A stretch of DNA of 64,000 nt. Source: Tolypothrix sp. PCC 7910. Lineage in GTDB: Bacteria; Cyanobacteriota; Cyanobacteriia; Cyanobacteriales; Nostocaceae. Where the stretch lies: the NCBI RefSeq assembly GCF_011769525.1, contig NZ_CP050440.1, positions 2,047,501 to 2,111,500 of the forward strand, in the 5' to 3' direction. The first letter of the stretch is position 1, and each line of letters begins with the position of its first letter. Under the pieces are notes generated by a model, which did not search any database, had not been told where the DNA came from, and worked only from the letters and a program-made list of their open reading frames with translations. This document shows, piece by piece, positions 27,442-49,860 of this stretch. The position numbers were made by a program, and so were the translations under genes.

Positions 27442-30093
27442 TTAAAGCCAATTCCCAATTAATACGTAAGCCGACCAATAGGAAGGTGCTTTGTAGTTGG
27501 GGTGTTGCAATAATTTTAACTGGGCATGGCGGAGAGCTTCGGCTTTGGTGACTTTACTGCTTTGCAGTTGTTGATAGAAATCACCTACAAACATAGCTGT
27601 GGATTCATCGTCAATTTGCCACAAGGATGCTACGGTACTGCGCGCTCCGGCTCTGACTGCGGCTCCAGCTAAACCCAGCGCGGCGCGGTTATCACCGGTG
27701 GCGGTTTGACAAGCACTCAATACTAATAGTTCTACGGGTTCTGGTTTGGTTTCATCGCGATTGCGGAGTAGGCTATCAAATTGCTTCACATTGATGGCAC
27801 CATCAGCCGCTAAGATAAAGGTGTCTTCGACGCGGGAACTAAATTGACCGTGAGTTGCCAAATGTAGGATGTTAAAGGCAACTTGATTAACTTCTTTTGC
27901 TAATGCCTTTTGGGTAAATTTTTCATTTAAGAGATTAGTTGTAGAAACTCCAGCTTTGGCAATTAAATCTACTTCCGATTTAATAGCAGGTAAGGGTGAG
28001 AAGTTGGGGAAATTTGGCGGTGGTTGTGTTAAACCAGCAGTTAAGGCTCGCAATTGCTGTTTTTCTATAGGTTTGGGATCAAGTAATTGTAGACCTACAC
28101 TAAGAGCGATCGCATATTTCTCTATTAAGTATTGTTTACCATCATAGAGAGATGCCATTGGCAAGTTGCGTAATGCACCATCGAGTACAAATACTAGGGT
28201 ATTGACTTTGTTTTCTGGCAATTGTGATTCAATAGGTTTAATTAGCCAGTTATAAACCTGTTTTCCTTGGGTTTTAACGGCGTTGAGCGCAGTAGGATTA
28301 ACCAAATTTCTTCGCAGTTCTGCTAAGACTTTGTTAACTTCCGCTTGGGGAACTCGGGTACTGTAATGCTGTAGTGGTTTTTGGGGAATTTTGACAATTA
28401 CCTGAATTTCTTCTGGAAGAACAATCGGATAAAGAATTGCTGTATTGGGATTATCTTTATCTACTACTCGATCTAAAGCCACACTCTGTCCTAATAGACA
28501 AGCTTCGCGAAAAAAGTTATCTAATTCTGCCAACTGTAAAGCCTCGATGCGCTGGCGTGCTTTATCTAAAATTTTGTCATCAGCCTTTCCCGCTTGGGAT
28601 TGCAGCAACAATTCTACAGACTCTCGATAGACTGGTTCCACACTATCGCGGAAACTAAATTGCACATCCTGATTAATTGCAACCAAGTCCCGGCGCAGAG
28701 AATTGAGAGTTTCCACCGCCCCATCATAAGCCGCGATCGCTTTTGTTAAATCTTTTTGTGCCCAAAAAATTCTGCCTAATTGCCATTCCAAACGATAAGC
28801 TATTTCCGGCGCATTGTTCGTTTGAGCCAAAACTAATGCTTGTTTAGCCAGCTTTTGCGCCTCTGTCCAGCGTTGTTGTTGCTCATATAAGTTAGCTAAA
28901 CTGCCTAAAGCATAAGCCTCTGTTTTTTGATCCCCCAAACTGCGAGATTGTTGAATAGCGGTGGTGAGTTGCAGAGACGCGATTAATCGCGTCTGTACAA
29001 GAGTGCTGAGTTGGGAGTTGGGAGTTGTTAGTTTGTTGAGGCTTTGAGCGAAGTTAATGGCGGCGTAAATACTTGCACGACTGGGAGGGAGTTGTGCAAG
29101 CTGGGATTGAATTGCAGGTAATAGGGTTTCGGCTGTGGAAAGCTGTTTATCTTCGATGAGTAGGCTGAGAAGATTCAGCTGTGCTTGGACTTTGGTTAAA
29201 GGTGAAGGGGATAATTGAACAGCTTGTTGATAATAAGCGATCGCATCTGCTGTTTTCTGCTGTGTGCGGGCGTTGTTCCCTAAACTGAAAAGACTGGCCC
29301 CAATTTCTGCATTTGATTGTAAACTCTGTGCAATTTCTTGACTTTGCTTTAACACCGCTTCCGACTTTTTCCCATCACCTATGGTTAATAGGCTATCGCC
29401 AAGCGATCGCAATCCCACTGCTTTTTCTATCGAGTTGGGTTGTATTTGTAACTTTTGATATGCTTGCTCTAGTATTTCTACAGCCCGTAGATAAGTACCT
29501 TGGCTTCTCCAAGCCTGTGCTTGATTAATCAGCGTTCGCACTACGCCGTTTTCGTTCTTTAGCTGCGTATAAATCTTTGCTGCTTGTTGCCAGGTTGTTA
29601 AAGCCGCCTCCGCCTGTCCTGTGGCTAATTGCAAGCGTCCTTGAATATCTAAAGATTGGGCGAATATTTGCAAACTTTGGCTGTTTTGTTGTCCGTTGAG
29701 CAAATTCAAACTGTCTGTAATTGCCTGTTTTGCTTCCTGCCAAGCACCGAGTTGCTGATAAGCTAGGGAAAGATTACTCAAAGTTGCAGCTTGTTTGATG
29801 CGATCGCCTTGAGTTTGATATTCTTTCACAGCTTGCTGCAATACCTGCACCGCCTCGCTAAACTTTCCTGCATCGTAAAGCAATTTACCCTGTTGCAGTA
29901 GAGAAGTTGCAGCAGCAATTTCCTTGACAATCGGTTGAGATGAAGCAGCAATTCCCGGAAGCACCGCCATCATTGGTGAACTCAAACTGCACAGCAAAGC
30001 CATGAGAAAGTAGGCAAACAGGCGGAAAAATTTGAATTTTCGCCGATTTACTAGGGAATAATTTGCTACAGACAATTGAGTCACTTGCGTCAT
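27442..30093 (-). CDS. Exported TPR-CHAT caspase-like protein
   Basis: An 883-residue protein. A signal peptide or anchor lies at about residues 20-50 (FFRLFAYFLMALLCSLSSPMM). Residues 55-470 are TPR-type helical repeats (KLLYDAGKFSEAVQVLQQAV and similar). The C-terminal 300 residues are a CHAT domain with His748 (LHLATHGQF) and Cys795 (LSACQTATG), and the family end SYWSAYVLIGNWL. Both dyad residues are present. Residues about 354-374 (TPNSQLSTLVQTRLIASLQ) are a read-through of dispersed intergenic repeats, including the 20-bp palindrome at 28975-28994, inserted in frame between TPRs. TPR-CHAT proteins of this type are abundant in filamentous cyanobacteria and are presumed proteases; targets are unknown. 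Confidence 0.9.
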   Translation of the reverse strand: MTQVTQLSVANYSLVNRRKFKFFRLFAYFLMALLCSLSSPMMAVLPGIAASSQPIVKEIAAATSLLQQGKLLYDAGKFSEAVQVLQQAVKEYQTQGDRIKQAATLSNLSLAYQQLGAWQEAKQAITDSLNLLNGQQNSQSLQIFAQSLDIQGRLQLATGQAEAALTTWQQAAKIYTQLKNENGVVRTLINQAQAWRSQGTYLRAVEILEQAYQKLQIQPNSIEKAVGLRSLGDSLLTIGDGKKSEAVLKQSQEIAQSLQSNAEIGASLFSLGNNARTQQKTADAIAYYQQAVQLSPSPLTKVQAQLNLLSLLIEDKQLSTAETLLPAIQSQLAQLPPSRASIYAAINFAQSLNKLTTPNSQLSTLVQTRLIASLQLTTAIQQSRSLGDQKTEAYALGSLANLYEQQQRWTEAQKLAKQALVLAQTNNAPEIAYRLEWQLGRIFWAQKDLTKAIAAYDGAVETLNSLRRDLVAINQDVQFSFRDSVEPVYRESVELLLQSQAGKADDKILDKARQRIEALQLAELDNFFREACLLGQSVALDRVVDKDNPNTAILYPIVLPEEIQVIVKIPQKPLQHYSTRVPQAEVNKVLAELRRNLVNPTALNAVKTQGKQVYNWLIKPIESQLPENKVNTLVFVLDGALRNLPMASLYDGKQYLIEKYAIALSVGLQLLDPKPIEKQQLRALTAGLTQPPPNFPNFSPLPAIKSEVDLIAKAGVSTTNLLNEKFTQKALAKEVNQVAFNILHLATHGQFSSRVEDTFILAADGAINVKQFDSLLRNRDETKPEPVELLVLSACQTATGDNRAALGLAGAAVRAGARSTVASLWQIDDESTAMFVGDFYQQLQSSKVTKAEALRHAQLKLLQHPNYKAPSYWSAYVLIGNWL
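28972..29035. repeat. Dispersed repeat insertion inside the TPR-CHAT gene
   Basis: Contains the palindrome AGACGCGATTAATCGCGTCT (28975-28994) plus the phrase GAGTGCTGAGTTGGGAGTTG, both otherwise found between genes (compare 42391, 47232, 60158 for the palindrome and 36777, 51760 for GTGCTGAGT). Its length and phase keep the reading frame open. Confidence 0.75.
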
Positions 30094-31071: not shown

Positions 31072-34000
31072 TTACCAAGGATTACCCACCATTGTAAATG
31101 CTGCCCAATAATAAGGATGAGACAGGGATTTATCCGGTTCATCGATACTCTCAGCAGGTAAAGGCAAACTCGCCACAGGTTCTAAACCTTGAATTTGACC
31201 ATTTTTGAGGAAAACTTTGCCTGTAGCCATAGCTACTTGCGCTTGTCTTAAGGCTTCTGCGCGAATAGGTGCGGTTTTCAAACTTTCGTAGAACTTCGTC
31301 ATTAAGGCGGCTGTACCTAAATCGCTGACATACCATAGACTCGCAACACTAGTTTTAACACCTGCTAGTACAGCTAACCCGGCAAACCCAATCTCTGCTT
31401 CTTCGTTTCCTACCGCAGTGCGACAAGCACTTAATACCATCATCTCAACTTGGGGGTCGTTTAAGCGTAATTGCCGGATTTGGTCTAAACGTAATTTATC
31501 TTCCCATAATTGAATATAGGATTTATTCAAGGCTCCTCCCTCAAAATCTGCATGGGTAGCCATGTGAATAATGCCAAATGGTTCTTGACGACGAACTGCT
31601 TTGAGATTAGCTAAAGTTGCTTGTTTATCTAACAATAATTTACCTTGCCATAGTTTCGTCACTAATGTTGATATTTCCACTGGAACTGCTGGCAAAGGTA
31701 TTTGTCCTTGGGTACTTTGGGAAACACCCAAAGCTAAAACTTGGGATTTTTTAATATCTGTATACAGGGTATTAGTTAAACTGAGACTAGGCATTAAGCC
31801 TACACTATATTGTTCTACCAAAAATCTTTTACCATCGTGAAGTGCGGCGATTGGTGTAGAACGTAAGCCAATGTCTGGGAGAAAGACTAAATTGGTGATT
31901 CCTTGTGTTTGTAATTCCGCATTAATTGGGGCAATTATCCAATTATAAAGTTGCTGAGATGGGCGCAAATAAAGATTATTGCTTGGATTAATAATCTCTT
32001 GGCGGAATTGGTTAGCTGCTTTGAGAACTTTGGTTTTTGTGGCTTCAGGAATGCGTTTGCGGATGGGATTACCTTTGCCTGTAATTACTACTATTTCCAG
32101 TTGTTCATTATCTTTTTCGGCTGAAGTATTTAACTGTTTATTAGATGAAGTAGGCGCAATTTCTACAGGTACAAAACTGAGGTAAATAAACGCTGGTTTT
32201 ACACCTGTGGCTTTTTCAATTTGAATGGCTATTTCTTTGGCATCATCGGGTGATTTGAGTGTATTACCACTGACACCTAAACGTTGCTCAAATTCCCCAG
32301 TGAATTTATCTTCAGGAAGTTCTTCTCCAACTTTTTTATCTTCGCCACCATTATTATTTACAGGCTCGTCAACTTTTGTTGGTAGACAATTAAAATTGCA
32401 CACAGGAATATCTGGCTTATTTGTCTGGGTGACGTTGATACCTATCTGTACAGGTGTGGAAGTAGAAACACCATCACTGGCACGAATAGTGAAGGCATTG
32501 AGCAAACCAGTAGTATCTGTTGGGGGCGTGTAAACTAAGTTAGAACCGCTTGATACTGTAGTCACACCAGGAACAACAGCCGCACCATTGACAGTTAAAG
32601 TACCAGAATTGACTGCATCCACGCGAATGGTGGTGTTGTCGTTGTTAGCATCGGTGACTACTGCGCCTAAACTACCAAAATTTACTGCTACCGATTGATT
32701 AGTTTGGGTAGTAGGTAATGTGGTGTTGGCTGTTAATGTCGGGGGACTGTTGACAGAATTAATTGTAATCCCGGCGGGAGTGCCACTAGCTGCGCCGCCG
32801 TTGGGTAATACAGGTGCGCTCAAGCTACCTGCATTAATAATAGAAGTTCCCCCGGCGTTGAGTGCGCCTGCTGTACCGTTAACGCTAGCATTCCCTACGA
32901 TAAATTGCACATTATCAGGGCCGCCATCATGTTGAATTGTGATGTTACCGCCAATAGGTGGTGCAAAGCTAGCACCTCCCTCACCAGTAAAGAAACCATC
33001 AGTGGCGATTGTATCTCCAGTAGCTAGTGTCCCTGTTCCTCGCACCAGTCCATTTGTTAAGACTTGGACATCACCACCAGTAACAGTACCTCCTGGTTCT
33101 GTCGTGGCTTGGCTGTTGATTGTGGTAAAGGTAATTGTGCTACCAAAAGCATTGGTTGTCCTGAGAGTGACGTTTCCACCTGTTGCGATCGCATCACCAT
33201 CGACATTTAATGCAGTAGCTGAGGAATCAATTGCACCAGTCGTAATATTAGCCGCAGCAGTTAAGTTAACTGCACCAGATGTCGCCGTATAATCTCCACT
33301 CGGCCCGGTTTTGGTGACAGATGAGTTAATTGCGCCTGTCGTGATACTACCCGCACTACTAGTTGCTTGAATGTTCCCACCTGTACCTAAGCGAAAACCC
33401 TCAGTAGCTGAAGAATTAATATTCCCTGTATTGATATTACCGACAGCACTCAAATTCACAGTTCCAGCCTGACCTCCAGCCAAGTCACCGATACTGGTGT
33501 CAAGATTTCCCAGGGTGATAGCACCACCACTACTAGTAACAGCAATATTACCTGATGCGCCATAGGCATTACCAGTGGCAATAATATTGCCTGCAGTAAT
33601 GTTACCTGTTGCAGATAAATTCACATTACCGCTAGGAGCAAAGTTACCTGTGGTGTTGAGATTCCCTAGTGATAAACTCGCGCCGGAGATGAAGATATCC
33701 CCTCCAGTAGTATTGATGATGTTGCTGGTATTGGCAAAGGTAACAGCACCGTTTTGCGAAGTTAGCCGGAAACTACCTGCACCACCTAAATTTAGCGTCG
33801 CTACACCAGCCGCAGTAGTTACCCCAGTTGTATTACCTGTAATGGGGTTAATAGTAATATTTCCGGTTGCTTGTAAGTCAATATTGGCACCAGCACCACT
33901 TAACGCACCCCAAGAGATAGTGTTCGCACCATTATCAGCAGATCCAAAAGGAATATTACTCGGTGTACCATCAAAAGTACCACCTGTTGCGGCATCAATA

Positions 34001-36132
34001 ATGGTCAAGGTACTGGGGTCGAGTAACAAAGTTCCCAATGTACCATTAGCAGCAGAAGTATCTACCTGACCATTAAAGGTAAGGAAATTTTTACCTGATA
34101 CTTCCACAAAACCACCATTACCACTATTTGCTCCGCCACCGGCTGTAATTTTCCCGAGGAACTGGGTTGTGTCGTTACCCCAAACAATTACTCGTCCCCC
34201 ATCACCATTGAGGTTACTATCGGCAGCAATTACCGATTTACTATCAACATAAGTGTTAGTAGCAGTTGGTACAGTACCTTGACCTTTATAATCACCACCT
34301 ATTAGGACTGTACCGCCGCCATTATTCCCAGAGGCGTTAATATTGGCATCAACTAAACCGACTTGTTGACCCAAAATATTCACCTTCCCGCCTGTTGCAC
34401 CGGATGCATCAACTTTCCCAGAGACAATGGTTGTACCAGGAGTAGTGGGAATAGTTGTGTTAGACGCGGAAAGTTTTACAGTTCCATCAGGGTTAGCCGT
34501 TACACCTGTGTTCCCAACAGTGAGTAATTCTGGTAAAGAGGGAATTGGGATTGTCCAGTTATTTGGTTGATTACTATTAGCCGCTGAAGGTTGAACTTCT
34601 AGGCTTAACAAATTACCAGGCTGGCTAAGGCGTACCCAATTTTCCCCTGGTACAGATGTAACTAAAATTTGCCCTGCGGGTGCTGTAAGGCTTCCGGTAT
34701 TTACGACCGTTCCACCTAACAGGCTCAAACTTTGTCCATCAGCCACAGCCAAATTACCAGCATTTAATATAGCTCCTGGCTGGCTCATGGTAAAGGCAAA
34801 ACCTGTGGGATTGCCAACTAAAACTGAGTAGTTATTCCCACCACTAGCATTAAACCAACTATTACCAAAAGCAATTCCGTTGGCTGTGGTGGCTGTGAAC
34901 GCACCAGGAACATTTAAGCTAGCATTCGGCCCAAAAACAAATCCGGCGGGATTCATCAGGTAGAGGTTAGCAGTCCCCCCAGTTACCTGAATTAAGCCAT
35001 TGATAATGGAAGCATTACCACCTGTCACCCTACCTAAGATATTTTGCAGATTGGGATTGGCTTGGAAGTTCGCAATTTGTTCTGGTGTTAAACCAAACTG
35101 TTGAAAGCTGTGGAACAGGTTAACACCATTACTCGAAGTCTGACCACCAGTGATATCCAGCCTGTTACCATTAGGGGTTACTATGGTATTTGTACCATCA
35201 TTTGCAGGTATAATTTGTTGAGCTTGAACAGTTGCAGCCGTTAGGGTTGCAACTAAGGGGAGGATTCCTAAGCAAAGCGGTTGAGGTTTGAGTAAGCGCT
35301 TAAGGACTCGAGGGGAATTATTTTCTCTTACCTCCTGCCTTCTGCCTCCTGCCTCCTGCCTCCTGGCCTCTACTTGCTTGTGACGTAAGAAAAAGCGCCC
35401 AGTGGCGAGTTCGACATCGATTTGATATTTGTCAGCTAGCCCTCGCCGTTGCAATGCTTGGGCAATTACCTGTTGAGAACATAACAGCAGTTCTAGCTGG
35501 GCTTGTTTGGTGATATTCCCTGCATGGTGGCGGTAATAGTAGAGTGGCTGCTGAATATGTGCAACTTGGGTGACCTCCGAAAGCCGCAAACATAAATCGT
35601 AGTCTTCCGCGTAATTCGGGGAACCATTGAACCCATCTACTAAGTCATAAATAGAACGACGAATCAGGCGGAATTGAAAAGTCATGAAATCAACTAACAG
35701 TCTTTCTTGAGAGTAGGGAATCAGACTGCGCCGACCATATCTAATCACTTTACTCTTATCGTCAACATCTAGATAATCGGTATATACAAAGCCAATTTCT
35801 GGCTGACGATTAAGGATAGTAACGGTTTTTTCCAAGGCGGTTGGCGCTAAATAGTCGTCACTATCTACCCAACCGATGTAGGTTCCTGTAGTTTGAGCGA
35901 TCGCATCTCGCCGTGCCGCAGTTACTCCCTGATGCGGTGCTGCTATTACCCGCACACGGCTATCTTGCCCCGCATATTTTTGCGCGATCGCTACCGAATT
36001 ATCTGTAGAGCCATCATCCCACACCAGTAACTCAAAATCTCGCCATGTCTGCCTCAGAACGCTGGCGATCGCCTCTCCTAGAAAAAGCTCCCGATTGTAA
36101 TTCGTAATGACAATGGAAATCGGCAGTGACAT
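31072..36132 (-). CDS. Giant fusion: GT2 glycosyltransferase + haemagglutinin-type secretion domain + CHAT protease
   Basis: A continuous 1,686-residue frame. The start at 36132 has GGAG seven bases upstream. Residues 1-240 are a family 2 glycosyltransferase (SIVITNYNRELFLGEAI, VWDDGSTDNS, the DXD-type WVDSDDY, and EDYDLCLRL). Residues about 254-268 (EARRQEAGGRRQEV) are translated from the dispersed GGCAGGAGGCAGG repeat. Then comes a signal-peptide-like segment (LGILPLVATLTAATVQA) and a two-partner secretion passenger domain (NPNLQNILGRV, YLMNPAGFVFGPNASL). A long Gly/Thr/Asn-rich beta-helix stalk follows to about residue 1,230. The C-terminal CHAT domain has His1527 (IIHMATHADF) and Cys1570 (LSACRTAVG). 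No ATG, GTG or TTG occurs in frame between the repeat and the signal segment, so the secreted part has no start of its own. TpsB is encoded divergently at 36475. Either two genes were fused through the repeat, or a lost start codon disabled secretion. Confidence 0.85.
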   Translation of the reverse strand: MSLPISIVITNYNRELFLGEAIASVLRQTWRDFELLVWDDGSTDNSVAIAQKYAGQDSRVRVIAAPHQGVTAARRDAIAQTTGTYIGWVDSDDYLAPTALEKTVTILNRQPEIGFVYTDYLDVDDKSKVIRYGRRSLIPYSQERLLVDFMTFQFRLIRRSIYDLVDGFNGSPNYAEDYDLCLRLSEVTQVAHIQQPLYYYRHHAGNITKQAQLELLLCSQQVIAQALQRRGLADKYQIDVELATGRFFLRHKQVEARRQEAGGRRQEVRENNSPRVLKRLLKPQPLCLGILPLVATLTAATVQAQQIIPANDGTNTIVTPNGNRLDITGGQTSSNGVNLFHSFQQFGLTPEQIANFQANPNLQNILGRVTGGNASIINGLIQVTGGTANLYLMNPAGFVFGPNASLNVPGAFTATTANGIAFGNSWFNASGGNNYSVLVGNPTGFAFTMSQPGAILNAGNLAVADGQSLSLLGGTVVNTGSLTAPAGQILVTSVPGENWVRLSQPGNLLSLEVQPSAANSNQPNNWTIPIPSLPELLTVGNTGVTANPDGTVKLSASNTTIPTTPGTTIVSGKVDASGATGGKVNILGQQVGLVDANINASGNNGGGTVLIGGDYKGQGTVPTATNTYVDSKSVIAADSNLNGDGGRVIVWGNDTTQFLGKITAGGGANSGNGGFVEVSGKNFLTFNGQVDTSAANGTLGTLLLDPSTLTIIDAATGGTFDGTPSNIPFGSADNGANTISWGALSGAGANIDLQATGNITINPITGNTTGVTTAAGVATLNLGGAGSFRLTSQNGAVTFANTSNIINTTGGDIFISGASLSLGNLNTTGNFAPSGNVNLSATGNITAGNIIATGNAYGASGNIAVTSSGGAITLGNLDTSIGDLAGGQAGTVNLSAVGNINTGNINSSATEGFRLGTGGNIQATSSAGSITTGAINSSVTKTGPSGDYTATSGAVNLTAAANITTGAIDSSATALNVDGDAIATGGNVTLRTTNAFGSTITFTTINSQATTEPGGTVTGGDVQVLTNGLVRGTGTLATGDTIATDGFFTGEGGASFAPPIGGNITIQHDGGPDNVQFIVGNASVNGTAGALNAGGTSIINAGSLSAPVLPNGGAASGTPAGITINSVNSPPTLTANTTLPTTQTNQSVAVNFGSLGAVVTDANNDNTTIRVDAVNSGTLTVNGAAVVPGVTTVSSGSNLVYTPPTDTTGLLNAFTIRASDGVSTSTPVQIGINVTQTNKPDIPVCNFNCLPTKVDEPVNNNGGEDKKVGEELPEDKFTGEFEQRLGVSGNTLKSPDDAKEIAIQIEKATGVKPAFIYLSFVPVEIAPTSSNKQLNTSAEKDNEQLEIVVITGKGNPIRKRIPEATKTKVLKAANQFRQEIINPSNNLYLRPSQQLYNWIIAPINAELQTQGITNLVFLPDIGLRSTPIAALHDGKRFLVEQYSVGLMPSLSLTNTLYTDIKKSQVLALGVSQSTQGQIPLPAVPVEISTLVTKLWQGKLLLDKQATLANLKAVRRQEPFGIIHMATHADFEGGALNKSYIQLWEDKLRLDQIRQLRLNDPQVEMMVLSACRTAVGNEEAEIGFAGLAVLAGVKTSVASLWYVSDLGTAALMTKFYESLKTAPIRAEALRQAQVAMATGKVFLKNGQIQGLEPVASLPLPAESIDEPDKSLSHPYYWAAFTMVGNPW
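35331..35372. repeat. GGCAGGAGGCAGG-type repeat at the GT2/haemagglutinin junction
   Basis: Three to four tandem 7-bp GGCAGGA units on the minus strand, the same family as 42311-42335, 48621-48662 and 49101-49163. Inside the fusion gene it codes EARRQEAGGRRQEV. It marks the probable fusion point. Confidence 0.8.
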
Positions 36133-36474
36133 GGAAGTTCTCCAACGCAATTTCTAATCTCTTACCAGCATATTTATCCTATCGGATATCACTGAGAATT
36201 TTGCAGTGTTAAATGTAATTAAATATATTAATTTTTTTGAATATATCTGGCAAAAATATGATATTTAAATATTACTGTGGCTAAAACAATTTTCCGGAAT
36301 CTCAACTAGCCAGGTGTTTAACTAAGTAAACAGTAATTAAGCGTATAGTGCAGTTTCAGCAAGCTCTAGCGCCTTCTTAAGATTTTTTTGAGAAGGCGTT
36401 ATACTGGCAATGAAATTGATAACTTATACCTGATAGCTGAGAACTTTATACATCATACATTTCAGTACAGTGAA
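36133..36474. promoter_or_regulatory. Divergent promoter region of the two-partner secretion pair
   Basis: A 340-bp gap between the fusion gene (left) and the TpsB gene (right), so both are probably controlled from here. CGCCTTCT (36370-36377) and AGAAGGCG (36391-36398) form a perfect 8-bp stem in the TpsB leader. A TTG at 36388 that could lengthen TpsB lies in this hairpin and is not favoured as a start. Confidence 0.5.
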
Positions 36475-38517
36475 ATGAAAAAAGGTATAAAAAATAGTCT
36501 TAATTCTGAAGTTTTAATTCCGCAAAGTACGAAAATATATCAAAAAATTGATGCTTTGGGAAGTCCAAGTAAGAAATCAATAAAATGTCGATATCAACGC
36601 CAGTTTTTAGCTACCGTCCATCAAGCTTTTAACTATATTTTTAATCGGAAATTTTTTATATCTTTCTTGTATCAAAGTTTCGGTTTCAAAAGCAGTTTGT
36701 TCATTCTGCATTTAATTGGAATACTTACCATTACTGGCTTAAAAGCCACAGCAAACCAAAACAGTACTGAGTTAAAAGTACTGAGTGCTGAGTCTCAAAA
36801 TAGTGCTGAGTCGCAAACCAGTGCTGAGTCAAAAGTGCTGAGTTCTGAGTTGCAAAGCAGCGCTGAGTTGAAAGTCCTGAGTCCTGAGTCAAAACCCAAT
36901 TACCAATTACCAATTACCAATTACCAATTACCAATTACCCAATCCCCAACCCCCAGCCCCCAACCACCAGAAACTACCCCGCCTGAATTTACCCCTACAA
37001 CCCCTGAGAAATTTTTCGTCCGCAAAATTAATGTTGTAGATAGCACCGTATTTACGGAACAACAACTAAATCAGGTTGTTCAGCCGTTTGAAGGGCGGGA
37101 ATTAACAGTAGAAGAATTGAGGAAAGCTGCTGATGCTGTAACTCAGCTTTACCTGAACAATAACTATATAAATTCGCGGGCGATTCCCGTGACGCAACAG
37201 CCTGGAAATACAGATGGTGTAGCGGTAATTCGCATTATTGAAGGGCGAGTGTCAGAAATTGAGGTACAAGGAACCAAGCACTTAAATCCTACCTATGTGC
37301 GCGATCGCATTCGCTTAGGCGCAGGGATTCCCTTAAATACAATTAAGCTGGAAGAACAACTCAAGTTACTGCGACTCGATCCGCTATTTAATAATGTAGA
37401 AGCCAGCCTGCGCCCTACGGGAAAAGTGGGTGAAAGTATTCTTATAGTCAGGGTTGATGAAGCAAATCCTTTTGTCAGCAGCTTGAGTATAGATAACTAT
37501 TCACCGCCTAGCATTGGTTCGGAAAGGTTAGGAATCCAACTACTTCACCGCAACTTAACGGGGATAGGAGATGAACTAGCAGGTGCTTACTATCACACCC
37601 TTACAGGCGGTTCTGATCGCTTTGATTTTAGCTATCAAATTCCCCTGAATGCGATGGATGGGAAGTTACGCCTACGAGTTGCACCCAATCGCAACGAAAT
37701 CACCCAGCCACCTTTTGACCAGTTTGGTATCAAAGGTGATCAAGATGTCTATGAAATTAGCTATCGTCAGCCGTTAATGCGATCGCCTAGAGAAGAATTT
37801 GCCTTGTCTTTCGGCTTTACTTATGAAGATGGGCAAACTTTTCTCTTCGATCAACTTCCCACCCCCTTTGGTATCGGCCCTGATGCGAATGGCGTTAGTC
37901 GTACTAGTGTATTTAAGTTTAGCCAAGATTACATCCGACGCGACCCCCAAGGCGCTTGGCTGTTACAATCGCAATTTAGTTTAGGCACTGGTTTATTTGA
38001 TGCCACAATTAATAGTGACCCCATTCCTGATAGTCGCTTTTTCAGTTGGCTAGGTCAAATTCAGCGCGTACAGCAGCTAAATAATGATCACCTGTTAATC
38101 GTCCAAGCAGACTTGCAACTGACACCAGACAGCTTATTACCTTCCCAGCAATTCGTCATTGGCGGCGGACAATCTGTGCGCGGCTATCGGCAAAATGTCC
38201 GTTCTGGCGATAATGGATTCCGTTTTGCAATTGAAGACAGAATCACAGTGCAACGCAATAAAGCTGGATTATCAACTCTACAGGTAATACCATTCGTTGA
38301 TTTAGGCGCTGTTTGGAATCAATCAGATAATCCCAATAAACTATCCAATCAAACATTTTTAGCCAGCGCCGGTTTAGGGCTATTGTGGAATCAAGCCTTG
38401 GGCATTGATAAATTAACCATGCGCCTAGATTACGGCATCCCCTTTGTAGATTTAAGCGATCGCGGTAATAATGCTCAAGATGATGGCTTTTACTTTAGTA
38501 TCCGCTATCAACCTTAG
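36475..38517 (+). CDS. TpsB outer-membrane transporter (ShlB/FhaC/HecB family)
   Basis: The pore that exports haemagglutinin-type passengers across the outer membrane; about 680 residues from the ATG at 36475. A hydrophobic export signal lies at about 60-85 (SLFILHLIGILTITGL), unusually far from the start. Then comes a linker of repeat-derived sequence (SAESQTSAESKVLSSEL, then LPITNYQLPIT), a polypeptide-transport POTRA domain (FFVRKINVVDSTVFTEQQL, VIRIIEGRVSEIEVQG) and a 16-strand-type barrel with the family motif GGGQSVRGYRQN (about 565-575), ending in FYFSIRYQP with a terminal aromatic-rich strand. The partner passenger is the divergent fusion gene. Confidence 0.92.
   Translation: MKKGIKNSLNSEVLIPQSTKIYQKIDALGSPSKKSIKCRYQRQFLATVHQAFNYIFNRKFFISFLYQSFGFKSSLFILHLIGILTITGLKATANQNSTELKVLSAESQNSAESQTSAESKVLSSELQSSAELKVLSPESKPNYQLPITNYQLPITQSPTPSPQPPETTPPEFTPTTPEKFFVRKINVVDSTVFTEQQLNQVVQPFEGRELTVEELRKAADAVTQLYLNNNYINSRAIPVTQQPGNTDGVAVIRIIEGRVSEIEVQGTKHLNPTYVRDRIRLGAGIPLNTIKLEEQLKLLRLDPLFNNVEASLRPTGKVGESILIVRVDEANPFVSSLSIDNYSPPSIGSERLGIQLLHRNLTGIGDELAGAYYHTLTGGSDRFDFSYQIPLNAMDGKLRLRVAPNRNEITQPPFDQFGIKGDQDVYEISYRQPLMRSPREEFALSFGFTYEDGQTFLFDQLPTPFGIGPDANGVSRTSVFKFSQDYIRRDPQGAWLLQSQFSLGTGLFDATINSDPIPDSRFFSWLGQIQRVQQLNNDHLLIVQADLQLTPDSLLPSQQFVIGGGQSVRGYRQNVRSGDNGFRFAIEDRITVQRNKAGLSTLQVIPFVDLGAVWNQSDNPNKLSNQTFLASAGLGLLWNQALGIDKLTMRLDYGIPFVDLSDRGNNAQDDGFYFSIRYQP
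36897..36938. repeat. In-frame (CAATTAC)6 heptamer repeat within tpsB
   Basis: Six copies of CAATTAC, coding NYQLPITNYQLPIT. Just upstream, 36765-36895 is built of AGTGCTGAGT phrases coding the AESQ/SAELKVLS repeats. Both are intergenic repeat types of this genome, here serving as the linker before the POTRA domain. Confidence 0.85.
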
Positions 38518-42310: not shown

Positions 42311-42503
42311 CAGACGCAGGAGGCAGGAGGCAGGATTAATATTTTCATCCTTGGTGGTGCCAAAAGCTAGCTTGAATGGCTGACTTGTAGAGACGCGATT
42401 CATCGCGTCTGTTATTCCCCCAATCCCCAAAATTCTTGAATTTTGAATTTTGAATTTTGCGGAAAGTTGCGTGCGGGGGTTCCCCCCGTTGAGCAAACTT
42501 TCC
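42311..42503. repeat. Cluster of dispersed repeats
   Basis: Three repeat types in a row: GACGCAGGAGGCAGGAGGCA (42313-42335), the 20-bp palindrome AGACGCGATTCATCGCGTCT (42391-42410), and an inverted repeat with arms GGAAAGTT (42461-42468) and AACTTTCC (42496-42503) around GCGGGGG/CCCCCG. No gene. They fill the gap between the tandem repeat and the hybrid kinase gene's 3' end. Confidence 0.7.
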
Positions 42504-42544: not shown

Positions 42545-45500
42545 TTATTTGTCCCCAATCCCCGCCAAAGAAGCAACAATCAACACCAACTGCCTAGGTT
42601 CAACAGGTTTGCCGATGTGCATTTGAAATCCAGCTGCTAGAGCTTCTGTGCGTTCTGCATCTCCAGCGTAGGCGGTGAGGGCGGCGGCGGGAATTTGTCC
42701 GCCAGCTTCAGGACTTAAGCCTCTTACTTGACGGATTAAATCGTAACCGTCTTGTTCTGGTAAACCAATGTCCGATAACAGGACATCGTAGCTGTTGGGG
42801 TTGGTTATTAAAGCGGATAGGGCTTCATTGGCTGAGGCAACAGCTGTTACTTCTACTCCGTACTGTTGCAGGGTAATGGTAAATAACTGGCGAATATCTG
42901 CTTCATCATCAACAACCAAAACCCTTACACCTGCTAATGATGAAATATTCTCAATGGAGATTTCTGCTTCGTTTGGTAAAGTAGCTAACTGTGTAGCCAC
43001 TGGCTGAGAAATTGCTGGTAACTGCGTTTGCAACGGAAGCCTGACTGTAAAAGTTGCTCCTTGGTTTTCACCGGGACTTTCTGCTTCAATCGTACCACCG
43101 TGGAGTTCTACTAAGTGGCGCACTATAGAAAGCCCTAGCCCTAAACCAGGGTTTGAGCGTTTTCTGCTACCATCAGCTTGCCGGAAGCGCTGGAAAATAT
43201 AGGGGAGAAAGTCGGGTTTAATCCCTGTGCCTGTGTCGCTAATTTGAATTTGAGCGTGTAAATCGGTGTACTCTAGCGTAATATCGATTCTGCCCCCATC
43301 TGGGGTGAATTTAATGGCATTAGAAAGCAAGTTCCACATTACTTGCTGTAAGCGATTGGGATCGCCGTTGATTCTTCTGGCTGCCGAATCTAGCCGCGAT
43401 GCAATTGAGATATTTTTGGCTTCGGCTGAGATGCGAACTACTTCAATAGCGGCTGTAATTATGGGTAAAAGCTCCATTGGCTCGGCATCAAGGCGCAGCA
43501 TCCCGGCGCTGATGCGTGAAATGTCTAACAAATCTCCAATTAGCTTGGCTTGAGCTGTAGCACTGCGTTCAATTGCTTCTAGTCCTTGATTAATAATTTC
43601 TTGCGGGAGATTGGGCCGCTGGAGCATTTGTGCCCATCCCAGTAAGGAATTTAGCGGATTACGCAGTTCGTGGGAAAGAATCGATAAAAACTCATCTTTG
43701 GCGCGGTTAGCTGTCTCTGCCGCAGCCCGGGCTGATTGTTCTTGTGTAAGCAACTGAGTACGTTCTGCTTCTAGTTGCTTTTGTTGGGTGATATCTTCAA
43801 TTACCAGCAAAATCAATTGCATATTCTCAATTTCTCTGATTCGGCGGGCATTTAGCCGCATGATTTTATGCCCGATAGACTCAAAGTTATGCTCAACTTC
43901 CAAATCTTGAAATGGGGTATTGCTGGGGATGACATCTTCTAGGAGCGATCGCAACATTGGAATATTCCATTGTCCATTGCCGAGTTCAAATATCAAATGC
44001 TGTTCTGTTTCTGTGGGCAATACTTGGAATGTTTCGTAGAAAGAGCGATTAGCTCTAATTACCCGTAAGTCTAAATCCAGCACCAAAATCGATTCCCGCA
44101 CTGTATCTACAATTGCTTCGGCGTAATCTCTGGATGCTCTTAGCTGTTCGGTGCTGCGTTTGAGTCCGTCAATGTCAACTAACACCACCACAGCACCGTC
44201 AATTTTATTATCTATTGTGCGATAAGGTCTAATTCGCAAATCATACCAGTGTCCTTCGGAGTCTTGCACTTCCTGGGTTTTAAAGTTGAGCGTGCCAATA
44301 ACTTCTAAAATTTGTTGCTCTAAATCTGAAATATTTAAATTATGATTAATATCACTAAGTGGTCGTCCGATATCCGTGGAAATGAGGTTAAAAATTGTGC
44401 CAGCCACCGGAGTAAACCGCCGAATCCGCAAATCACCACCTAACATGAGGATGGGAATATTAATATTACTGAGTAAGTTTTGTAAATCGTTGGTGACTTG
44501 GGTTGACTCAATATTTCGCCGTTGTAGTTCGTCGTTAATGGTGTTGAGTTCTTCGTTGGTTGCCTGAATTTCTTCTTTAGCAGTTTCTAATTCCTCATTT
44601 GTACTTTGCAACTCTTCGTTGCTAGAGAGAATTTCTTCGTTCGCTGCTCTCAAGTTTTGATTAGTAGCTTGTTGTTCCTCAATAATTGATTGCAAATATT
44701 CTTTAGTAGTTGCTAGCTCTTGTTGAAGTGCGTTAATCTCCTGTTCAGCCGCAGCTTGTTTTCCCCGCCGAGATTTACTACTATCGCTGGCTGATTCCGA
44801 GGAGATAGCTGTTGCCGATGGCATATCTGCAAACAGTACTAAAAAGTAGCTTTCATCTCCACGGGCAGATTTAAACGGCACCACATCAACCTGTACCAGT
44901 CTAACTTGACGGTTCTCAATAATTTGGATACCTTCTTTGCGGACTGAGGTTTGTCGCTGTTTTGCTTGGTGGATGGCGGTGCGTAACTCTAGCCGCAGTT
45001 CTTCTTTTGCCATCTTCAACAAATTAAAGCTGGGCCTACCTGCTGGGGGTTGGAGATAGAAACTAGTCTGCCCGCGAAATTGCACAATCTCTAAATCTTT
45101 GTTAATCACTACACCCACCGGAGCATACTGATTTAACACTATTTGGTCAGCAGTTCGCTGCATTTCTATCTCATCCCAACCATTCTCATTCACTGGTGAG
45201 CGTGGGGTATTGAGTTTGAGAGGATAGTTACTGGCGATCAGATCTATTCCTAACTGAGCCGGAGCCATTTTGCGGCTATAAATTTTGAACTTTCTATCTA
45301 CTAAAGTAAATAAATTAGAAAACTCCCCTACTGTTTCTGAGGTGCCTAACATCAAAAAGCCAGTGGGCCTCAGACCATAATGAAAGATGGGTAGAAGTTT
45401 CTTCTGGATTGGACTTCCCAAATAAATCAGGACATTACGGCAGGTAATCAGATCCAGCTGGGAAAAAGGCGGATCGGCAATCAAGTTTTGCCGAGCGAAG

Positions 45501-46762
45501 ATACATAATTCCCGCACTGGCTTGCTGATTTGATAACCACCTTCTACCTGCACAAAAAAGCGGCGTAGACGTTCTGGCGAAACTTCTGTGACCTGGCTGG
45601 CTTTGTAGAAGCCCATTCTCGCTATTTCAATGACTGCTTCATTGACATCTGTAGCAAAAATTTGGATTGATGTATTAATTACCTGATCAGCCAAAAACTC
45701 TAGCAAGCAAATCGCTAGTGAGTAAGCTTCTTGACCAGTGGAACATCCCGCCACCCAAATGCGGATGGGTGTATCTTGGGTGCGATTTTGGGTGATAACA
45801 GGAAATACTTTGGTTTTTAAGGCTTCAAAAGATTCAGGATCGCGAAAAAAACTGGTGACAGTAATTAGCACATCTTGGTGCAATGCCAGGACTTCTGCCG
45901 GATTTTCCAGAAGATAGCGGACATAATCTTCCAATCTTTCCAGCTTGTACAAAATCATCCGCCGCAGAATGCGCCGCTTGAGCGTATTTTGCTTGTATTG
46001 GTGAAAGTCAACCCCCGTAGCAGATTTGAGCAAGCTAAAAATTGTCGAGACAGCATCGCCGCTTTCTGGGATGACTTCAGTCGTTGCTGCTTGCTGCTGG
46101 CTCTGAATATAGGGATGACGGCTCAACTTTGTCAGTTCCTCAGCAATCTCTCGTGGGGTGAGAACAAAATCTACATTACCCGAAGCCAAAGCAGTACTCG
46201 GCATCCCAGCGACTTTTGCCGAGTCTTGAGTCTGGGCAAAGGTAATACCACCAGCTTCTTTGATATGTTCTAGCCCCCGTGCACCATCGCCATCGCCTCC
46301 CGACAGCACTACACCAATAGCTTTACTTCCCCGTTCCTCTGCTAAGGAAATTAAGAAAGCATCGACTGACATAAACAACCCATAGGTTTTACCCCGGGGA
46401 GCTAAGTTCAGCACTCCCTGAGCAATAGTCATCTTGGCATTAGGCGGAATCACATACACATGATTCGGTTCCACAACCATGCCATTCTGCACTTCCACCA
46501 CAGGCATTTCGGTTGAGCGAGAGAGAATCTCACTTAACAGACTGTTTTGATTGGGACTCAAGTGCTGCACTACCACAAATGCCATCCCAGTATCATTGGG
46601 CAAATGGTTCAGCAATTCTGTGAAAGCTTCTATTCCACCCGCCGAAGCACCCATCCCCACAATCGGAAATAATTCATCTTGATTATTCTCCTGCTCATTA
46701 TTTGAGGATTGAGCAGCTTGGGTATTAGCTGGAGATTTTTTAGCAGACCGCTTAGAGTTCAT
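42545..46762 (-). CDS. CheB/CheR-type hybrid sensor histidine kinase with receiver domain
   Basis: A 1,405-residue signalling protein. Domains in order: CheB-like methylesterase (about 30-215; Ser in MGASAGGIEAF, His in VVVQHLSPN, Asp in SGGDGDGARG), CheR-like methyltransferase (about 245-510; VWVAGCSTGQEAYSLAI, LIYLGSPIQK), a linker PAS region, a long coiled coil (about 675-760; repeated SNEELQSTNEELE), one or two PAS domains, HisKA with His1031 (ILSHELRNP), HATPase (N-box near 1147, GLGLGLSIVRHLV) and a receiver with Asp1331 (LLSDIGLP). All catalytic residues appear present. There is no membrane segment and no chemotaxis operon near, so it is probably a cytosolic two-component sensor with unknown input. 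Confidence 0.93.
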   Translation of the reverse strand: MNSKRSAKKSPANTQAAQSSNNEQENNQDELFPIVGMGASAGGIEAFTELLNHLPNDTGMAFVVVQHLSPNQNSLLSEILSRSTEMPVVEVQNGMVVEPNHVYVIPPNAKMTIAQGVLNLAPRGKTYGLFMSVDAFLISLAEERGSKAIGVVLSGGDGDGARGLEHIKEAGGITFAQTQDSAKVAGMPSTALASGNVDFVLTPREIAEELTKLSRHPYIQSQQQAATTEVIPESGDAVSTIFSLLKSATGVDFHQYKQNTLKRRILRRMILYKLERLEDYVRYLLENPAEVLALHQDVLITVTSFFRDPESFEALKTKVFPVITQNRTQDTPIRIWVAGCSTGQEAYSLAICLLEFLADQVINTSIQIFATDVNEAVIEIARMGFYKASQVTEVSPERLRRFFVQVEGGYQISKPVRELCIFARQNLIADPPFSQLDLITCRNVLIYLGSPIQKKLLPIFHYGLRPTGFLMLGTSETVGEFSNLFTLVDRKFKIYSRKMAPAQLGIDLIASNYPLKLNTPRSPVNENGWDEIEMQRTADQIVLNQYAPVGVVINKDLEIVQFRGQTSFYLQPPAGRPSFNLLKMAKEELRLELRTAIHQAKQRQTSVRKEGIQIIENRQVRLVQVDVVPFKSARGDESYFLVLFADMPSATAISSESASDSSKSRRGKQAAAEQEINALQQELATTKEYLQSIIEEQQATNQNLRAANEEILSSNEELQSTNEELETAKEEIQATNEELNTINDELQRRNIESTQVTNDLQNLLSNINIPILMLGGDLRIRRFTPVAGTIFNLISTDIGRPLSDINHNLNISDLEQQILEVIGTLNFKTQEVQDSEGHWYDLRIRPYRTIDNKIDGAVVVLVDIDGLKRSTEQLRASRDYAEAIVDTVRESILVLDLDLRVIRANRSFYETFQVLPTETEQHLIFELGNGQWNIPMLRSLLEDVIPSNTPFQDLEVEHNFESIGHKIMRLNARRIREIENMQLILLVIEDITQQKQLEAERTQLLTQEQSARAAAETANRAKDEFLSILSHELRNPLNSLLGWAQMLQRPNLPQEIINQGLEAIERSATAQAKLIGDLLDISRISAGMLRLDAEPMELLPIITAAIEVVRISAEAKNISIASRLDSAARRINGDPNRLQQVMWNLLSNAIKFTPDGGRIDITLEYTDLHAQIQISDTGTGIKPDFLPYIFQRFRQADGSRKRSNPGLGLGLSIVRHLVELHGGTIEAESPGENQGATFTVRLPLQTQLPAISQPVATQLATLPNEAEISIENISSLAGVRVLVVDDEADIRQLFTITLQQYGVEVTAVASANEALSALITNPNSYDVLLSDIGLPEQDGYDLIRQVRGLSPEAGGQIPAAALTAYAGDAERTEALAAGFQMHIGKPVEPRQLVLIVASLAGIGDK

Positions 46763-48620: not shown

Positions 48621-48662
48621 TGTGGAGGCAGGAGGCAGGGGGCAGAGGGCAGGAGGCAGGAG
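48621..48662. repeat. GGCAGGAGGCAGG repeat, left flank of the four-helix-bundle gene
   Basis: Tandem GGAGGCAGG/GGGCAGAGGGC units in plus orientation. The same repeat in opposite orientation lies directly after the gene (49101-49163), so the gene is framed by inverted copies. Confidence 0.8.
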
Positions 48663-48746
48663 TAAATAAAAAAGAGAAGGAAGGAGAAGGATTAAAAATT
48701 ATATAATAAGCATTAACATCAAACTTCTGCCTTCAAACTTCTGTTT

Positions 48747-49100: not shown

Positions 49101-49163
49101 CCCCTCCTGCCCCCTACCTCCTCTCTCTGCCTCCTGCCTCCTGCCTCCTGCCCCCTGCCTCCT
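49101..49163. repeat. GGCAGGAGGCAGG repeat, right flank, partly coding
   Basis: Inverted relative to 48621-48662. Its inner part is translated as the last residues of the leftward response regulator (EAGGRRQEAGGRERR), so the regulator's original stop codon was replaced or lost. Confidence 0.8.
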
Positions 49164-49860
49164 TTTGAACCGAAGACGATATTAACCCATGTTCGAGCGC
49201 ATGACGTACTAACTCAGTGCGACTATTTGTCTCAGTCTTCCTGAATAATCTACTCACATACTTTTCAACATTGCGAACGCTAGTGTTGAGGCGAACGGCA
49301 ATTTCTTTATTCATTAAGCCTGCCGCTACTAAATCTAAAATGCTTTGTTCCCGTGGGGTCAAATCAATCTTAATTGACGGATATGATTTAGGATATCCAT
49401 AAGTCTTATCTAAAATTACCCTAATTCTTTCTATTTGACGGGCGATCTCTTCAATTTTGGTAGTACCACCGCTGGTTTTAATAGTACTAGCACGCCGTTC
49501 TAGCAAATTTTCGACAATAGCTACTAACTCATCAGGGTTAAAGGGTTTGGGTAAATAGGCATCACAACCGGCTTGGTATCCGAGAATGCGATCGCAACTC
49601 ATACCTCTAGCAGTCAAAAACACTACTGGTAATGCCTCAAAGCGCGGATCTTCTCGTAATTGCTTCAAAAAATCCATCCCGCTAATCTGCGGCATCATAA
49701 TATCGGAAATTACTAAATCTGGCACGCTGTTTTGCAATAATTGCCATGCATCATTGGCGTTACTAGCTACTTCAACAGTAAAACTACTTTCTTGCAAATA
49801 ATCTTTAACGGCTTCCCGTACACCAGGTTCGTCATCTACTAGTAACAATCTTGCTGACAT
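49114..49860 (-). CDS. NarL/FixJ-type response regulator
   Basis: A 248-residue DNA-binding regulator. The receiver domain (1-120) has LLLVDDEPG, the phospho-acceptor Asp53 (ISDIMMP), VVFLTARG and LPKPFNPDEL. A LuxR-type helix-turn-helix follows (about 170-225; TPREQSILDLVAAGLMNKEI, NVEKYVSRLFRKT). The last 15 residues (KEAGGRRQEAGGRERR) are translated repeat and not part of the domain. No sensor kinase adjoins; the nearest kinase is the CheB/CheR hybrid 2.4 kb away. Target genes are unknown. Confidence 0.92.
   Translation of the reverse strand: MSARLLLVDDEPGVREAVKDYLQESSFTVEVASNANDAWQLLQNSVPDLVISDIMMPQISGMDFLKQLREDPRFEALPVVFLTARGMSCDRILGYQAGCDAYLPKPFNPDELVAIVENLLERRASTIKTSGGTTKIEEIARQIERIRVILDKTYGYPKSYPSIKIDLTPREQSILDLVAAGLMNKEIAVRLNTSVRNVEKYVSRLFRKTETNSRTELVRHALEHGLISSSVQKEAGGRRQEAGGRERR

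Follow-up and report, generated by a model that had tools for sequence, protein, structure and literature searches.

Can a gene in which a secretion signal lies behind a complete cytosolic-type enzyme encode a genuine protein, and if so, how might its product reach the cell surface? The question is raised by a gene in a stretch of 64,000 nucleotides from the cyanobacterium Tolypothrix sp. PCC 7910 (hereafter the window), in which a GT2 glycosyltransferase, a two-partner secretion (TPS) passenger and a caspase-like CHAT domain share one reading frame. A preliminary description of the window offered two readings of this gene: either recombination at a repeat had created a new composite protein, or the passenger had lost its start codon and its secretion was broken. 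Our analysis favors the reading that it encodes a conserved composite precursor, which would be inserted N-in/C-out and cut by signal peptidase I, with the passenger being exported via the partner transporter TpsB; we place the probability of this reading at roughly 0.64.

Domain architecture of the composite gene

The gene is a stop-free frame of 1,686 codons on the minus strand, which runs from an ATG at 36132 to a stop at 31072-31074, with a TTG at 36150 as a further in-frame candidate start upstream. Both the uninterrupted frame of this length and the presence of the three domains in it had been noted in the preliminary description and are borne out here, the latter by matches to the Pfam models Glycos_transf_2, TPS and CHAT that all lie above cut-off (Table 1). 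The Gly/Asn/Thr-rich stretch of the passenger matches no Pfam family at E 0.01. When the window protein and two other fused proteins were scanned against NCBIfam, the matches listed comprised part models only, none of which extends across the junction.

The TPS domain follows directly upon the predicted cleavage site and thus stands near the mature N-terminus, as in the TpsA proteins of type Vb secretion, and the divergent neighbor, with its POTRA and ShlB barrel domains, is predicted to be the cognate TpsB. A passage in PMC5422565 describes TPS passengers as having an N-terminal signal peptide; that of the composite gene is internal, being located behind the GT2 domain. The C-terminal domain shows a CHAT fold with a His/Cys dyad in sequence and model, and is therefore predicted to be a protease.

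Table 1. Coordinates of the parts of the composite gene and of its divergent neighbor in the window
Feature	Position	Strand	Evidence or remark
GT2 glycosyltransferase domain, residues 1-252, with DDGSTD, DSDD and EDYD motifs	35377..36132	-	PF00535, 1.2e-33 (residues 6-162)
Hypervariable linker, residues 253-275, mainly GGCAGGA-type heptamers	35308..35376	-	Array at 35329-35365
Internal signal peptide, about residues 276-304; predicted signal peptidase site VQA/QQ after residue 304	35221..35307	-	Charge, hydrophobicity, A-x-A motif
TPS (two-partner secretion) domain, start of the predicted mature passenger	34591..35220	-	PF05860, 1e-41 (residues 306-514); strand-rich in model
Gly/Asn/Thr-rich passenger stretch	31966..34590	-	Translation
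CHAT caspase-like protease domain (predicted), His1527 and Cys1570 (counted from the ATG)	31081..31965	-	PF12770, 6.5e-72 (residues 1390-1684)
TpsB outer-membrane transporter (ShlB/POTRA_2; predicted), divergent neighbor	36388..38517	+	PF03865, 1.7e-31; PF08479, 9.5e-15

Distribution of the fused architecture

Among the best 80 of 268 loci, the GT2 and TPS domains are fused at 60, while 19 carry the GT2 only and one is without a readable frame. In 49 of these 60 fused copies the frame continues to a complete CHAT end and in one it is cut within CHAT by the end of the locus; seven further GT2-TPS frames are cut by contig ends and three end early (L140, L189 and L215). Where a TPS domain follows a GT2 domain as its neighbor in the best 80 loci, the two are in frame in 60 cases and out of frame in one (L193), which lies on a MAG contig with a coverage of 4.1 and in which the CHAT is split too. 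The preliminary description had proposed a comparison with relatives carrying separate GT2 and TPS-CHAT genes; this split form, a free GT2 beside a separate TPS-CHAT, was sought at the 19 free-GT2 loci, and only the frame-broken MAG copy at L193 was recovered.

Across 39 genomes of relatives, the fused frame is present in G001-G008, G016, G024 and G033, with the copy of G006 being ended by a contig end, and those of G007 and G024 by a TAA and a break, respectively, both further on in the passenger. The TAA in G007 (Nostoc carneum NIES-2107, loci L140 and L038) is in frame after the GT2-TPS part and closes a frame of 688 aa, so that this copy is interrupted. Calothrix brevissima NIES-22 and Nostoc sp. 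106C are examples of strains in which the gene is intact. A search of 388 genomes of the order with the GT2 query gave matches in 76 genomes at E <= 1e-70, from which matches in frames of at least 595 aa and some free ones were followed up. With the window and the loci of its relatives counted, this set holds 52 loci with GT2 and TPS in one stop-free frame, the openness of which is a selection effect because matches in long frames were chosen. Of the 388 genomes, at least 40 contain such loci, a lower bound since only the stronger matches were taken, and the loci belong to six family codes (f1, f3, f12, f15, f20 and f33).

After merging, the succession of GT2, internal signal peptide and TPS in one stop-free frame is found at 90 distinct loci, 60 from the best 80 of 268 loci and 30 from the genome sets (L160 and L163, which have identical GT2s, are both counted). 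Fused copies are seen in Nostoc, Calothrix, Tolypothrix, Anabaena, Desmonostoc, Plectonema, Leptolyngbya, Stenomitos, Phormidium, Coleofasciculus and Xenococcaceae, and of 386 genomes sampled across the phylum, 23 have the GT2, whether fused or free, at E <= 1e-75, all of them from the window's own order or class. The recurrence of the same uninterrupted frame in other assemblies rules against an assembly error, and specifically against a sequencing indel at the repeat, which had been named beforehand as a possible undoing of the observation. Taken together, these sequences support a genuine composite protein that is not a one-off but is encoded in many filamentous cyanobacteria.

Some relatives of the GT2 are found in other settings. 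At L212, L123 and L136 they lie within other large frames (1216, 1565 and 568 aa) without a TPS match. On a plasmid of Calothrix brevissima NIES-22 (L205), a free GT2 of 256 aa stands under a feature called 'filamentous hemagglutinin outer membrane protein', a name possibly carried over from the fused form. Identical or near-identical copies of a GT2 relative (L198, L201 and L203) occur in MAGs labelled Gemmatimonadetes, Acidobacteriota and Caldilineae, which may reflect either contamination or mobility.

The TpsB gene of the window points away from the composite gene, and a TpsB-like frame is similarly present upstream on the opposite strand at 37 of the 60 fused loci from the best 80 of 268; it was not found at 23 of the 60, some of which are on short contigs. 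The composite gene is also adjoined by a TPR-CHAT gene (27442-30093, minus strand), making two CHAT proteins neighbors in the window. A TPR-CHAT neighbor (match >400 aa) was seen at 3 of the same 60 fused loci, of which 44 extend beyond 3.5 kb on the downstream side, and it was accordingly rejected as a conserved part of the system. Elsewhere in the window, 42545-46762 (minus strand) encodes a 1405-aa protein with a CheB-CheR-PAS-histidine kinase-receiver architecture.

Conserved residues, selection and predicted structures

The DxD residues D90, D92 and D93 of the GT2 domain are retained in 78 of 78 fused copies, D177 in 76 (Glu in 2), D39 in 76 (one Ile, one gap) and D40 in 77 (one gap). These conserved motifs, which we take to be the nucleotide-binding Asp pair, the DxD and the general-base Asp, are those expected of a GT2 enzyme with the GT-A fold, and the fused copies are predicted to be such enzymes. 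The His and Cys of the CHAT domain are present in all 68 fused and all 25 unfused copies. In eight groups of close relatives, dN/dS was estimated by NG86 separately for the GT2, linker, signal and TPS regions. It amounts to 0.06-0.29 in GT2 and 0.05-0.19 in TPS; in the signal region it ranges from 0 to 0.45 in seven groups and is 0.8 in one with almost no changes; for the linker, six groups give 0.04-0.45, a group with 17 codons gives 0.71, and the value of the remaining group is undefined. Most of these eight groups show purifying selection in the GT2, signal and TPS regions.

An AlphaFold2 model of the N-terminal part, with 52 of 57 N-terminal rows as alignment, has a mean pLDDT of 73.5 and a pTM of 0.48. 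Its GT2 domain (residues 1-251) is mostly at pLDDT 74-96, with a dip around 131-150, and is followed by a low-confidence linker and signal and then by the strand-rich TPS domain. The closest structure to the modelled GT2 in Foldseek is the K4 chondroitin polymerase (2z86; E 6.3e-17, 28-30% identity); the sequence profile agrees with this, and its matches include a putative GT2 named GalT1 (5hea). The model of the CHAT region, with 35 of 51 C-terminal rows as alignment, has a mean pLDDT of 78.7 and a pTM of 0.81, and recovers Csx29/TPR-CHAT (E 1.3e-12, 11-14% identity) and separase (E 2.0e-9, 9-13%) in Foldseek; by sequence, the CHAT has no relative among solved structures at E 0.1.

The heptamer repeat and the linker

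The GT2 end abuts the junction array, which consists of heptamers of the GGCAGGA type that we take to be short tandemly repeated repetitive sequences, and such arrays are present elsewhere in the window. This is the observation that speaks for a recent repeat-mediated fusion, or for a broken gene private to this genome. With up to 2 mismatches allowed, a 16-mer of the junction array matches the window 13 times (overlaps counted), in four arrays, where shuffles lead one to expect 0.05. The repeat had been said to lie between genes in its other occurrences, which holds for the arrays at 42317-42332 and 48622-48665, both outside the listed window frames of at least 120 aa, but not for the array at 49128-49164, which sits within a response-regulator-like frame. 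That frame (49114-49860, minus strand; family read from the sequence) ends in the heptamer-encoded residues KEAGGRRQEAGGRERR, and is a second case of the repeat being read as protein.

In the window's genus, the linkers of G000 and G002 contain five heptamer matches each and that of G004 eight, all in frame. The linker of G003 carries a different repeat with two heptamer matches, and G005 and G006 have one match each, all again fused in frame, while those of G007 and G001 have zero matches and yet join GT2 and TPS in frame. G007, which is from the window's own genus, has GT2 and TPS domains 96% identical to those of the window and is fused without the repeat. The linker of G004 exceeds that of G002 by 42 bases, and its frame is kept because these extra bases equal six heptamers. 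Over 87 loci the linker measures from 5 to 189 residues, with 41 different lengths, and stops interrupt its other two reading frames in 80 and 75 of the 87. As frame 0 of the linker is open through the selection of loci, the fairer count is that of the GT2/TPS neighbors in the best 80 of 268 loci given above.

Given a repeat-free fused relative with such similar domains, the heptamer repeat, as judged from the linkers, was inserted into a linker that also occurs repeat-free, and is not the cause of the fusion. A recent repeat-mediated fusion is rejected in view of the widespread fused loci and the repeat-free fused relatives in the same genus; likewise, a broken gene private to this genome is contradicted by the same architecture at 90 loci and by selection that, in most groups tested, is purifying for the GT2, signal and TPS regions, and we regard either event as extremely improbable. 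Thus, the first of the two original readings is supported in that the composite is genuine, but its origin in the repeat is not upheld by the 90 fused loci or by G007 and G001, which are repeat-free yet fused.

The buried signal peptide

The segment VLKRLLKPQPLCLGILPLVATLTAATVQA/QQ, at about residues 276-304 of the window protein, resembles a Sec signal peptide, which agrees with the earlier placement of a signal-peptide-like segment behind the GT2 domain at about residue 290. It had also been stated correctly that no ATG, GTG or TTG occurs in frame between the fusion point and this segment; none lies between the GT2 core and the segment, and the last one upstream is a TTG inside the GT2 domain. 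We scored signals by simple criteria (charge, hydrophobicity and the A-x-A motif), taking the stretch of highest hydrophobicity in the region from the GT2 core to a point 60 residues into the TPS match, and leaving out three of the 90 loci (L142, L215 and G123b) in which the GT2 end motif was not found. All 87 scored loci possess a hydrophobic core and a signal-peptidase-like site between GT2 and TPS, and a net positive charge precedes the core in 82 and is absent in 5. A hydrophobic core combined with the strict motif [AV]xA[QE] is found in 83% of the buried signals, as against 1.5% of shuffled regions and 32% of GT2 cores. The site criterion alone is passed by 79% of GT2 cores in its permissive and by 48% in its strict form (buried signals, strict: 83%); the motif by itself being weak evidence, the case rests on the motif together with hydrophobicity and fixed position.

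As internal hydrophobic segments can serve as anchors, and the signal is such a segment, it might also remain uncut, in which case the GT2 would stay covalently attached and the passenger would span the distance from the cytosol to the cell surface or stay in the periplasm. What argues against such a signal-anchor is the A-x-A-Q motif right before the TPS domain, with the above excess of strict motif plus hydrophobic core over shuffled regions and GT2 cores, as well as the order of signal, A-x-A and TPS, which resembles that of unfused relatives with N-terminal signals. An uncut anchor hence appears distinctly improbable, and a precursor cut at this site remains the preferred reading.

The start codons bear on a further alternative, in which the ribosome also starts in the linker or late GT2 to give an ordinary secreted TPS-CHAT, with the full-length chain being a cytosolic by-product or regulator. 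At least one in-frame ATG, GTG or TTG is present between the GT2 core and the signal core at 66 of the 87 loci, and a shorter second product is consequently possible there. However, the remaining 21 loci, the window among them, have none, and in the 52 loci for which in-frame start positions were compiled, these do not fall at a shared place (for 12 loci the rarer start codons were compiled as well). Moreover, a separate start needs no in-frame linker, yet among the best 80 of 268 loci the frame is kept in 60 of the 61 cases in which GT2 and TPS adjoin. We therefore consider two products improbable, and favor a single cut precursor. Nor do relatives share a conserved passenger start, as might be expected had a normal start been lost only in this assembly, a possibility raised at the outset.

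In the window's own genome the TPS domain has 32 matches, nine of which, at about 8.00-8.04 Mb of contig C1, form a passenger cluster. Among the 30 TPS loci read from these matches, a domain-sized extension is seen only in the fusion gene, with 312 residues before the TPS match as compared to 25 to 93 in the other 29. This genome also has one unfused TPS-CHAT gene (L249). The 25 unfused TPS-CHATs have ordinary N-terminal signals, preceded by a visible Met in 24 of them, L263_4 being the exception. In light of these ordinary N-terminal signals, the buried signal looks like a stable state and not like decay. The second of the original readings, namely that the passenger lost its start and that its secretion is broken, is likewise at odds with signal features kept in 87 of 87 loci and with the purifying selection that most of the eight groups show on GT2, signal and TPS.

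History of the fusion

Label changes between fused and unfused copies were counted on quick trees with long branches and a small hand-picked set of unfused controls. The CHAT tree (68 fused, 25 unfused) has 10 such changes, at least 4 of them forced by starred branches; the TPS tree (68 fused, 25 unfused) has 13, with at least 6 forced; and the GT2 tree (78 fused, 19 free) has 4, with at least 3 forced. A single origin of the fusion was rejected on account of the several changes on all three trees. On the passenger side, fused and unfused copies are intermixed in both the CHAT and TPS trees, so that as far as these sequences go the GT2 module has a history of repeated gain, loss or transfer. 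On the GT2 tree, the domains of the fused genes are close to one family, and all but three of the 19 free GT2s form two groups, with 5 and 11 members; the three are L193, with its broken frame, and L188 and L217, which are at contig ends.

A proposed precursor split between compartments

A single frame, its conservation, the catalytic residues, the signal features and the missing separate canonical start in many copies are what is observed. From these we infer the insertion, cleavage, export and all enzyme activities of a composite precursor in the following form. The whole chain would be translated as a single polypeptide from the GT2 start, with the GT2 domain folding in the cytosol. The buried signal peptide would then enter the Sec machinery N-in/C-out and signal peptidase I would cut after the A-x-A motif, such that the GT2 would remain cytosolic, with the former signal sequence tethering it to the inner membrane. 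The released TPS passenger would be exported by TpsB, and the caspase-like CHAT domain would thereby reach the surface or the medium. The part of PMC8844934 dealing with the membrane anti-sigma factors RsiV and RsiP describes their cutting by signal peptidase I at the outer side, and presumes that the cytoplasmic remnant of RsiV is degraded afterwards; a stable GT2 remnant is thus not a given.

The substrate of the GT2 is the least certain part of this explanation. Modification of the nascent passenger in cis is our tentative choice, at somewhat less than even odds, over a role in building a surface glycan made in step with the passenger. A bolder version, which we find doubtful as a whole, is that signal peptidase I splits a polyprotein into equal amounts of a tethered GT2 and a secreted adhesin-like caspase-fold protease, the GT2 glycosylating its own passenger as this threads into Sec. 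HMW1C, the adhesin glycosyltransferase discussed below, belongs to the GT41 family, and the enzyme of the composite gene is a GT2 by Pfam. The density of N-X-S/T is not higher in fused passengers (2.30 per 100 aa in 50 fused versus 2.66 in 25 unfused, p 0.25), and the ratio of observed to expected is lower in them (1.16 versus 1.27 in the same numbers of passengers, p 0.008). Hence, passenger N-glycosylation visible as sequon enrichment was rejected, and given this and the difference in enzyme family, the sugar may be passed to Ser/Thr, to a glycan or to another acceptor.

If the GT2 acted on a surface or lipid-linked glycan and not on the passenger, the fusion would couple the amounts of a glycan enzyme and a surface protease and give the enzyme a membrane anchor, all of which is compatible with the composite precursor. 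The closest solved relatives, which are polysaccharide-type GT2s such as the K4 chondroitin polymerase, and the fused passengers without N-X-S/T enrichment are consistent with this role; on the other hand, GalT1 is also among the matches, so that the family does not fix the acceptor, and some GT2 enzymes act on adhesin glycans. We consider action on a glycan rather unlikely, and retain modification in cis as the working choice for the precursor.

Implications and comparison with known systems

In several cyanobacterial families, then, a signal lies behind a complete cytosolic enzyme and is kept there under selection. If the proposed precursor is confirmed, it would provide a natural system for studying how an internal signal peptide is recognized and how signal peptidase processes a composite precursor in bacteria. 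It would also be a case in which the 'third partner' idea of the HMW1 system is realized by gene fusion, and would supply a secreted CHAT protease at the cyanobacterial surface. Annotation pipelines could file such genes by their GT2, adhesin or CHAT part alone. No description of the GT2-signal-TPS-CHAT architecture was found in the open-access literature, as judged by the titles listed, and a compartment-splitting, self-modifying polyprotein, if confirmed, would be a new category.

The nearest functional parallel is the HMW1A/HMW1B/HMW1C system of Haemophilus influenzae, for which passages in PMC3983070 and PMC5422565 describe a TPS passenger that is served by both a TpsB pore and a cytosolic glycosyltransferase dedicated to it. 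A TPS passenger, a predicted TpsB and a putative glycosyltransferase are combined here too, though the likeness would be functional only. In the HMW1 system the transferase is a separate gene, belongs to another GT family and acts on Asn sites, whereas here a GT2 precedes a buried signal peptide in the same chain, and CHAT forms the end of the passenger. RsiV and RsiP, as presented in a part of PMC8844934, are comparable as membrane proteins with a cytoplasmic and an outer part and a signal peptidase cut on the outer side, which is predicted in our case. They differ in being regulatory and in their triggered cutting, in an outer part that is not a TPS passenger, and in a cytoplasmic part that is presumed to be degraded (same part of PMC8844934).

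Closer to home, the unfused cyanobacterial TPS-CHATs share the TPS and CHAT domains and the His/Cys pair with the fused gene, and differ in their N-terminal signal peptide and the absence of GT2. The extensions in the extended signal peptides of TpsA proteins and autotransporters are short. They are characterized in a passage of PMC5422565 as semi-conserved N-terminal extensions before the signal core. These are peptide extensions, whereas in the fused gene a whole enzyme precedes the signal core. Finally, the C-terminal domain appears from its model to share the CHAT/caspase-clan fold with the Craspase TPR-CHAT (Csx29) and separase; unlike these proteins, which act inside cells, the CHAT domain described here is carried on a passenger that is predicted to be exported.
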